NCBI RefSeq assembly: GCF_007655485.1
Contig: NZ_VJXQ01000001.1
Span: 786,817 to 850,816 of the forward strand
Length of the DNA: 64,000 bases
Source: Halobellus captivus
Lineage (GTDB): Archaea; Halobacteriota; Halobacteria; Halobacteriales; Haloferacaceae
Direction: 5' to 3'
The notes under the pieces were generated by a model, which saw only the letters and a program-made list of their open reading frames with translations, did no database searches and had not been told where the DNA came from. The translations under genes and the position numbers were made by a program. How positions within the stretch are numbered: position 1 is the stretch's first letter; the number at the start of each line of letters is the position of its first letter. This document shows, piece by piece, positions 25,105 to 26,148 of this stretch.

Positions 25105-25110
25105 CTTAAG
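25105..25110 (+). promoter_or_regulatory. TATA-like box of the ferritin-like/DtxR operon
   Basis: The sequence cttaag is about 27 bases before ATG 25135. That places the transcript start at the leader mini-ORF and not at the ferritin-like GTG at 25173. Confidence 0.5.
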
Positions 25111-25134: not shown

Positions 25135-25176
25135 ATGAACCGTGTGTCGCCCGCTACCGGGGAGGTGCACCCGTGA
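25135..25176 (+). CDS. 13-codon leader mini-ORF coupled to the ferritin-like gene
   Basis: Reads MNRVSPATGEVHP then TGA. The ATG is at leaderless distance from the TATA box, the frame contains a full Shine-Dalgarno ggaggtg (25161-25167), and its stop overlaps the downstream GTG start (GTGA). Termination-reinitiation is the natural reading. Whether the peptide itself matters is unknown. Confidence 0.5.
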   Translation: MNRVSPATGEVHP

Positions 25177-25664
25177 GCGTCGGCCACCGCGTCACTTCCG
25201 ACCACCAGCTCGCGCGACTCCTCCAGATCGGGATCGTCCTCGAGGAGGTCGTCGAGGCTCGGTCGTATCACCACTACCAGTCGCTGGAGGACGCGCCGAC
25301 GTTGGATCCCGACATCGAGACGCTCTTGGAACACGCCGCGGAGGAGTCGGCCGAGCACCGCAAGCGACTCGAAGGGCTGATCGAAGGACTCGACGCCGAA
25401 AGCATTCCGTTCGAGGAGATCAAAACGCTCGTCGAAGCGCGCTACGGCGGAACCGAGCCCGAGGACTTCGACGACATCCTCTACGATCAGCTGTGCAACG
25501 AGGAGACCGCGTACAAGTTCTACGACGACCTCATCGGGGCGCTGCGCGCGTCGGATGCAACGTTCGGGATCGACCGCGGCCACCTCATCGACACGCTCGT
25601 GGAGATCCGCGAGGAGGAAGCCGAAGGTGTCGAAGAAGTCACGAAGCTGATGAACACCCGCTAA
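25173..25664 (+). CDS. Ferritin-like (rubrerythrin-type) protein
   Basis: A 163-residue four-helix protein. Helix 1 has LQIGIVLEEVVEARSYHHY, helix 2 LEHAAEESAEHRKRLEGLIE, helix 4 LIDTLVEIREEEAEGVEEVT; the repeated Glu and ExxH patterns fit a carboxylate-bridged di-iron or di-manganese site. No rubredoxin domain is attached. It probably stores iron or removes peroxide. GTG start at 25173 with a strong Shine-Dalgarno 5 bases upstream. Its stop codon overlaps a second mini-ORF leading into a metal-dependent repressor gene, consistent with a metal-homeostasis unit. Confidence 0.82.
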   Translation: MSVGHRVTSDHQLARLLQIGIVLEEVVEARSYHHYQSLEDAPTLDPDIETLLEHAAEESAEHRKRLEGLIEGLDAESIPFEEIKTLVEARYGGTEPEDFDDILYDQLCNEETAYKFYDDLIGALRASDATFGIDRGHLIDTLVEIREEEAEGVEEVTKLMNTR

Positions 25665-25702
25665 TGAGACGAGACACGACGCAACACGGAGGACGGAGAT
25701 GA
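25664..25702 (+). CDS. 12-codon mini-ORF bridging the ferritin-like and DtxR genes
   Basis: Reads MRRDTTQHGGRR then TGA. Its ATG overlaps the stop of the ferritin-like gene (TAATG) and its TGA overlaps the next gene's ATG (ATGA). A Shine-Dalgarno-like ggagga lies at 25688-25693, 5 bases before ATG 25699. The frame therefore closes the 34-base gap with translation at both ends. Confidence 0.45.
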   Translation: MRRDTTQHGGRR

Positions 25703-26148
25703 ACACGGCCGACCAGTACGTCAAGGCGATCTACCTCCTCCAGCAGATGGAGAACGGGCCCGCATCGACCGGCGCGCTCGCGGACCGTCTGGACGTGAGC
25801 CCCGCGAGCGCAAACGAGATGATCGGAAAGCTCGAATCCAGAGGGCTCGCCGAACACGAGAAGTACAAGGGAGTCACGCTCACCGACGAGGGAATCGTCA
25901 GGGCACGCGACGCGCTCCAGACCTACTGTATCATCGAGCGCTTCCTCGCGAACGTCCTGTCCGTCTCGGAGTTCCGCACGGAAGCGCGCGAACTCGAACC
26001 GGTTATCGACGATCTCGTCGCGGAGCGACTCGACACGATCATCGACCGAAACGACGACTGTCCAGACTGTTTCGATCCCGAGACCGACGCCTGCTGTCAC
26101 CTCGAAATCAGCACCGAGAGCGCTGAAACCGAACAGAGCGCGGATTGA
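25699..26148 (+). CDS. DtxR/SirR-family metal-dependent transcriptional regulator
   Basis: A 149-residue protein. An N-terminal winged helix (TGALADRLDVSPASANEMIG, HEKYKGVTLTDEG) is followed by the dimer/metal domain (ALQTYCIIERFLANVL) and a Cys-rich tail, CPDCFDPETDACCHLEI. Family members sense Fe2+ or Mn2+ and repress uptake or control storage genes. It lacks the SH3-like third domain, as is usual for archaeal members. It probably controls the upstream ferritin-like gene and itself. Confidence 0.9.
   Translation: MNTADQYVKAIYLLQQMENGPASTGALADRLDVSPASANEMIGKLESRGLAEHEKYKGVTLTDEGIVRARDALQTYCIIERFLANVLSVSEFRTEARELEPVIDDLVAERLDTIIDRNDDCPDCFDPETDACCHLEISTESAETEQSAD

Follow-up and report, generated by a model that had tools for sequence, protein, structure and literature searches.

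A chain of stop/start contacts runs through the ferritin-like/DtxR operon of Halobellus captivus, and its new element is a frame-conserved internal reading frame that fills the gap between the two genes. Across nine families of Halobacteria the two genes are linked by such contacts, directly or through a linker of this kind, and the peptide sequence of the linker is free. The arrangement very probably represents a termination-reinitiation relay in which mini-ORFs act as conduits for ribosomes. For archaea, the locus is a clear evolutionary case in which selection on a reading frame would have favoured translational coupling itself and not a peptide: through 47 or more inferred changes of length the frame has stayed open, with its sequence free.

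Organization of the locus

The window, that is, the whole stretch of 64,000 nucleotides that was analysed, carries a promoter-like box, two mini-ORFs and two full-length genes on the forward strand (Table 1). Direct reading reproduced exactly what the original prediction had described, namely the two mini-ORFs with their coordinates, the GTGA, TAATG and ATGA overlaps and the internal Shine-Dalgarno (SD) motifs. ORFs of such length are usually omitted from genome annotation. The closest relatives place the genome with Halobellus (Haloferacaceae).

Table 1. Features of the ferritin-like/DtxR operon, in window coordinates
Feature	Position	Strand	Remarks
TATA-like box TTAAG, operon promoter	25106..25110	+	29 nt 5' of leader ATG
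Leader mini-ORF, 13 codons	25135..25176	+	putative leaderless position; ATG at 25135; peptide MNRVSPATGEVHP by direct reading; TGA (25174-25176) overlaps ferritin-like GTG (25173-25175) as GTGA
SD motif GGAGG within leader	25161..25165	+	7 nt 5' of ferritin-like GTG
Ferritin-like protein gene, 163 aa, GTG start	25173..25664	+	weak profiles and predicted fold
TAATG contact, ferritin-like stop/linker ATG	25662..25666	+	stop is TAA, 25662-25664
Linker mini-ORF, 12 codons	25664..25702	+	peptide MRRDTTQHGGRR; TGA (25700-25702) overlaps DtxR ATG (25699) as ATGA
SD motif GGAGG within linker	25688..25692	+	6 nt 5' of DtxR ATG
DtxR/SirR/MntR-type metal-dependent regulator gene, 149 aa	25699..26148	+	PF01325 and PF02742 above curated cut-offs

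Conservation of the linker

The ferritin-like and DtxR gene pair is present in nearly all genomes examined, and its junction was compared in a first set of 164 distinct loci from Haloferacaceae, Natrialbaceae, Haloarculaceae and others, and in a second set of 51 loci from four further families (215 loci and nine families of Halobacteria in total). An unbroken stop/start relay connects the end of the ferritin-like gene with the beginning of DtxR in 213 loci (162/164 and 51/51), although the distance between the two varies from 4 to 217 nt. The relay is built without a linker (direct ATGA or TAATG), with one linker of 3-74 codons, or with two linkers in series. In about 205 of the 215 loci every stop in the chain overlaps the next start, and in eight more the two lie 2-4 nt apart. 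The two incomplete relays, both from Halegenticoccus, have CTGA or TTGA in place of ATGA or GTGA at the linker start and still keep the frame. In a few loci (Haloferax, gap of 4 nt) direct coupling would be possible and no linker would be needed.

The reading frame is maintained with great consistency. Among the gaps longer than 6 nt in the first set, 122 of 124 are 1 mod 3. The remaining two, from Halalkalicoccus-like loci, are 0 mod 3 and coincide with the only double linkers of this set, which are joined by GTGA; the second set holds two further double linkers, likewise at gaps of 0 mod 3. Parsimony on a tree built from the two proteins gave 47 length changes between linker-bearing states, of which 45 were multiples of three and the other two create double linkers; the number of independent events is approximate, as the tree comprises two genes and direct overlaps are reconstructed at most of its deep nodes. 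The chance of at least 45 in-frame changes out of 47 in a free frame is about 1e-19 (binomial, p = 1/3, changes treated as independent). Furthermore, the 1952 interior linker codons contain a single stop in the linker frame, compared with 16 and 21 in the other two frames, and an SD-like motif is found in 117 of 121 linkers. Neither conservation nor common residues were found among the linker peptides across these loci.

The original prediction had proposed that conservation of ATG, stop and overlap together with a free peptide sequence would speak for a coupling role, and this is the pattern found across the nine families; the loss of the frames in close relatives, which would have argued against such a role, did not occur.

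The second linker of the double cases (L057/L177, L175, L238 and L273) often begins with ATGAAC or GTGAA, as DtxR does, and so resembles a duplicate of the region around the DtxR start. A separate DtxR promoter inside the linker was also considered and was rejected, as no TATA-like box was present 5' of DtxR in any of the 87 linkers of at least 37 nt.

Chance and control junctions

The overlaps at the starts of the two main genes come at almost no cost in themselves: residue 2 is a conserved Ser (AGY) or Asn (AAY), from which RTGA or ATGA follows. As a control, the distance between DtxR and the gene after it was taken in these loci, and it is spread evenly over the residue classes (9/8/8). In about 851 kb of the window's genome, a scan of same-strand gaps of 10-250 nt detected a chain in 10 of 268 gaps, compared with 4.2 expected from shuffled gaps; chains are thus not generally abundant, and the ferritin-DtxR junction is unusual. 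Enrichment in a single genome is weak by itself, but conservation of the sequence pattern across nine families makes chance untenable as an explanation.

A general abundance of linkers in this genome was not supported. The purK-purE gap, used as a second control, holds a similar linker in the window's genome, but the residue classes of this gap are mixed among relatives, and since the frame is not kept there, this linker probably arose by chance. As regards the shortest gaps of the same genome (10-49 nt), 20 of 38 are 1 mod 3, with 10 and 8 in the other classes. This excess hints that a few more frame-kept linkers may exist, although errors in start-codon prediction could also cause it. A gap of 1 mod 3, or of 0 mod 3 with two linkers, provides a signature by which other loci of this type can be searched for.

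The leader mini-ORF and the promoter

Leader candidates were defined as any ATG located 25-33 nt 3' of a TATA-like box, without requiring a frame. The distance from box to ATG is 28-31 nt in 113 relatives, and exactly 29 nt in 78 of them. In 108 of these 113 loci the candidate leader ORF ends precisely on the ferritin-like RTGA, with offsets ranging from 17 to 53 nt, and 27 of 30 leader length changes are multiples of three. An SD-like motif is present in 118 of 119 leaders. In four Halocatena-type loci the leader ORF continues for 29 nt within the ferritin-like gene, in a different frame. In the Natrialbaceae and some members of other families the leader is absent and the ATG found 29 nt downstream of the box is that of the ferritin-like gene, which suggests that the transcript begins on an AUG with or without a leader.

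The spacing of the TATA-like box points to transcription starting at or beside the ATG at 25135. The first mini-ORF had been called leaderless, and the TTAAG box 29 nt upstream fits this description, the start position being deduced from TATA spacing. The alternative start at the ferritin-like GTG, which had been named as the outcome that would contradict the idea, is not where this promoter geometry would place it.

As in the linker, the linkage of the leader is conserved and its peptide is free, with one partial exception in the Haloferacaceae. Most leaders of this family contain an in-frame G(T/C)N-TCG, encoding Val/Ala-Ser and mostly reading GTATCG, at codons 4-5 or 5-6 (25144-25149 in the window); the TCG is nearly fixed, while the third base of the preceding codon is variable, and the constraint may lie in the peptide, the RNA or an operator. 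This motif favours the possibility that peptides made from the mini-ORFs sense metal or stress by stalling the ribosome, in the manner of attenuation. Such sensing peptides are nonetheless unlikely. Attenuators and stalling peptides are recognized by conserved sensing codons, a conserved peptide or an RNA switch, and here the motif is confined to one family, being missing in Haloarculaceae and others. In addition, the linkers span 3-74 codons without residues in common, and the leader is lost entirely where the ferritin-like gene is leaderless. An Rfam search matched no RNA element, and nothing was found in support of the earlier suggestion that metal levels set the ratio of store to regulator.

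Other explanations of the mini-ORFs

An ordinary SD-leadered operon, with a short 5' UTR, intergenic SD sites and independent initiation at each gene, would render the mini-ORFs incidental. The GGAGG motifs stand at good spacing in both regions, and RTGA at the gene starts is a by-product of the conserved second residue. This explanation is also improbable, in that it accounts neither for a frame that survived 47 changes of linker length and 30 of leader length, nor for the scarcity of in-frame stops and the existence of double linkers in series. Moreover, the SD motif of Haloferax volcanii is reported not to be functional for de novo initiation, and to be used for reinitiation instead (PMC6728339).

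Programmed -1 frameshifting, in which slippage at each junction would yield fusion proteins without any reinitiation, agrees with the fact that every step of the chain is a -1 frame change. It is very improbable, however, because nearly every stop is overlapped by a start codon, usually ATG and less often GTG, and because relatives exist with direct ATGA and TAATG junctions. Where the window has TAATG, its nearest relatives read CAATGA, in which the linker ATG is unchanged and the contact is -4; this single base difference shifts the stop, leaving the ferritin-like protein one codon shorter, and preserves the contact with the linker ATG. No slippery sequence was noticed by eye. Finally, the idea that the linkers are real, fast-evolving small proteins, suggested by frames that are open in nearly all loci, was rejected as highly unlikely on the grounds of their length range (3-74 codons) and their Thr/Arg/Gly-rich composition with few acidic residues, which sets them apart from the ferritin-like protein encoded beside them, and also because a GC3 of 72% versus 66-69% in the other frames indicates no clear codon bias and some relatives lack any linker.

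A probable termination-reinitiation relay

The architecture and its conservation are shown by the sequences, and from them we infer where transcription starts, that the mini-ORFs are translated, and that ribosomes reinitiate at their ends and do so efficiently. In the relay, ribosomes would enter on the leaderless AUG at 25135 and translate the 13-codon leader, terminate on its TGA and reinitiate on the overlapping ferritin-like GTG with the aid of the leader SD. At the ferritin-like stop they would reinitiate on the linker ATG through TAATG, translate the 12 linker codons and, on terminating at the DtxR start, begin again on it with the help of the linker SD. Selection would act on the start, frame, openness, stop position and SD of each mini-ORF and mostly not on the peptide, and nearly all DtxR would come from ribosomes that had completed the ferritin-like protein immediately before.

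Published work on H. volcanii is consistent with such a relay. Leaderless transcripts make up 72% in this species (PMC4983044), and coupling between genes falls steeply once they are 13-14 nt apart and has disappeared at 22-23 nt (PMC10666635); if the linker were missing, the resulting gap of about 34 nt would therefore be expected to uncouple DtxR. For coupling in E. coli, the final 15 nt of the upstream gene are enough (PMC10666635). The conserved relay supports the view that downstream genes of haloarchaea cannot start translation by themselves and need ribosomes to be handed on. It also opens the dosage of DtxR, relative to the ferritin-like protein, to direct testing in Haloferax.

The archaeal recycling factor ABCE1 is an iron-sulfur protein. 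A bolder and unlikely extension of the relay is that it acts as a tunable divider of stoichiometry that reads the state of ribosome recycling, and thus receives an iron or redox input without a sensor in the leader peptide. Each additional junction would shed a fraction of the ribosomes, so that the number of linkers and the strength of their SD motifs would set the DtxR-to-ferritin ratio. Given the nature of ABCE1, iron shortage or oxidative damage would alter recycling and hence reinitiation on the mRNA.

Relation to known systems

Termination-reinitiation (TeRe) as described in H. volcanii and E. coli (PMC6728339, PMC10666635) relies on the same ATGA, GTGA and TAATG contacts, requires an overlap or a very short gap, and has the SD inside the upstream frame. 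The window and its relatives show such contacts, the overlap of stop and start being 4 or 1 nt or the two being a few nt apart, and have an SD in the upstream frame of both window mini-ORFs, which is usual in haloarchaea and not obligatory. In the described systems two full genes overlap, whereas here one or two non-conserved mini-ORFs fill a gap of 4-217 nt and so re-establish the contact.

The original prediction had regarded both leader and linker mini-ORFs as new, and this holds for the linker. Leaderless coupled small ORFs are already known in mycobacteria (PMC4633059), where a short ORF begins at a leaderless start and, as in the putatively leaderless loci described here, ends with RTGA on the main start, with its linkage conserved and its peptide not. 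The present type differs from these in that it is haloarchaeal, is kept in most of the families studied and includes an internal linker. Mycobacterial MIRU repeats also place a short ORF at a gene start with a -4 contact and retained coupling, and the idea of a short ORF that merely delivers ribosomes is reviewed in the same paper (PMC12548453); MIRUs are related mobile repeats, whereas the haloarchaeal linkers have no evident common repeat and persist across a whole archaeal class. Mini-ORFs that affect the next gene of an operon are found as well in the Salmonella Mg2+ transporter operon (PMC8092293) and in the axe-txe minigene (PMC8708949), but the mechanisms reported for them are abortive translation and a minigene, and not a frame-kept overlap on both sides. 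In the part of the literature that was covered, no account was found of archaeal operons with internal linker ORFs whose frame is conserved.

Additional candidate leaders of the first kind occur outside the window in the same genome. The gene of an Elp3-type radical-SAM acetyltransferase (G000:C1, near 119483, reverse strand) has a leaderless coupled leader ORF, MNRRSSRPREVISR, which also tells against the novelty of the leader, and similar leaders recur in several Haloferacaceae. A further gene, whose product was judged by eye to be ACT-domain-like (G000:C1, near 579295, reverse strand), has a putative 10-codon leaderless coupled leader, MHERRREIGR.

The two encoded proteins

The ferritin-like protein gives weak matches to the Rubrerythrin and Ferritin_2 profiles, with Rubrerythrin found in 17 of 44 members, and a PDB sequence search with it returned nothing useful. 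Its structural model, predicted with confidence (pLDDT 84.7), is a four-helix bundle that resembles the folds of Dps, bacterioferritin and YciF with TM scores of about 0.6-0.7, no Foldseek E-value being below 0.001; this predicted fold places the protein in the ferritin-like superfamily. The conserved residues are E24/E25/E28, E58, H62 (at a spacing of ExxxH), E110/E111 and E149, while the reference di-iron set consists of E, ExxH, E and ExxH, and a second ExxH was not seen in this protein. Since this set of metal ligands is non-canonical, iron storage is only a putative function.

The downstream protein is firmly assigned by its sequence profiles as a DtxR/MntR regulator with an N-terminal HTH domain and a metal-binding/dimerisation domain (PF01325, 63 bits against a cut-off of 26; PF02742, 35.5 bits against a cut-off of 27). 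Towards its C terminus (26060-26110) it bears a Cys-rich tail, DDCPDCFDPETDACCH, which could be an extra metal site.
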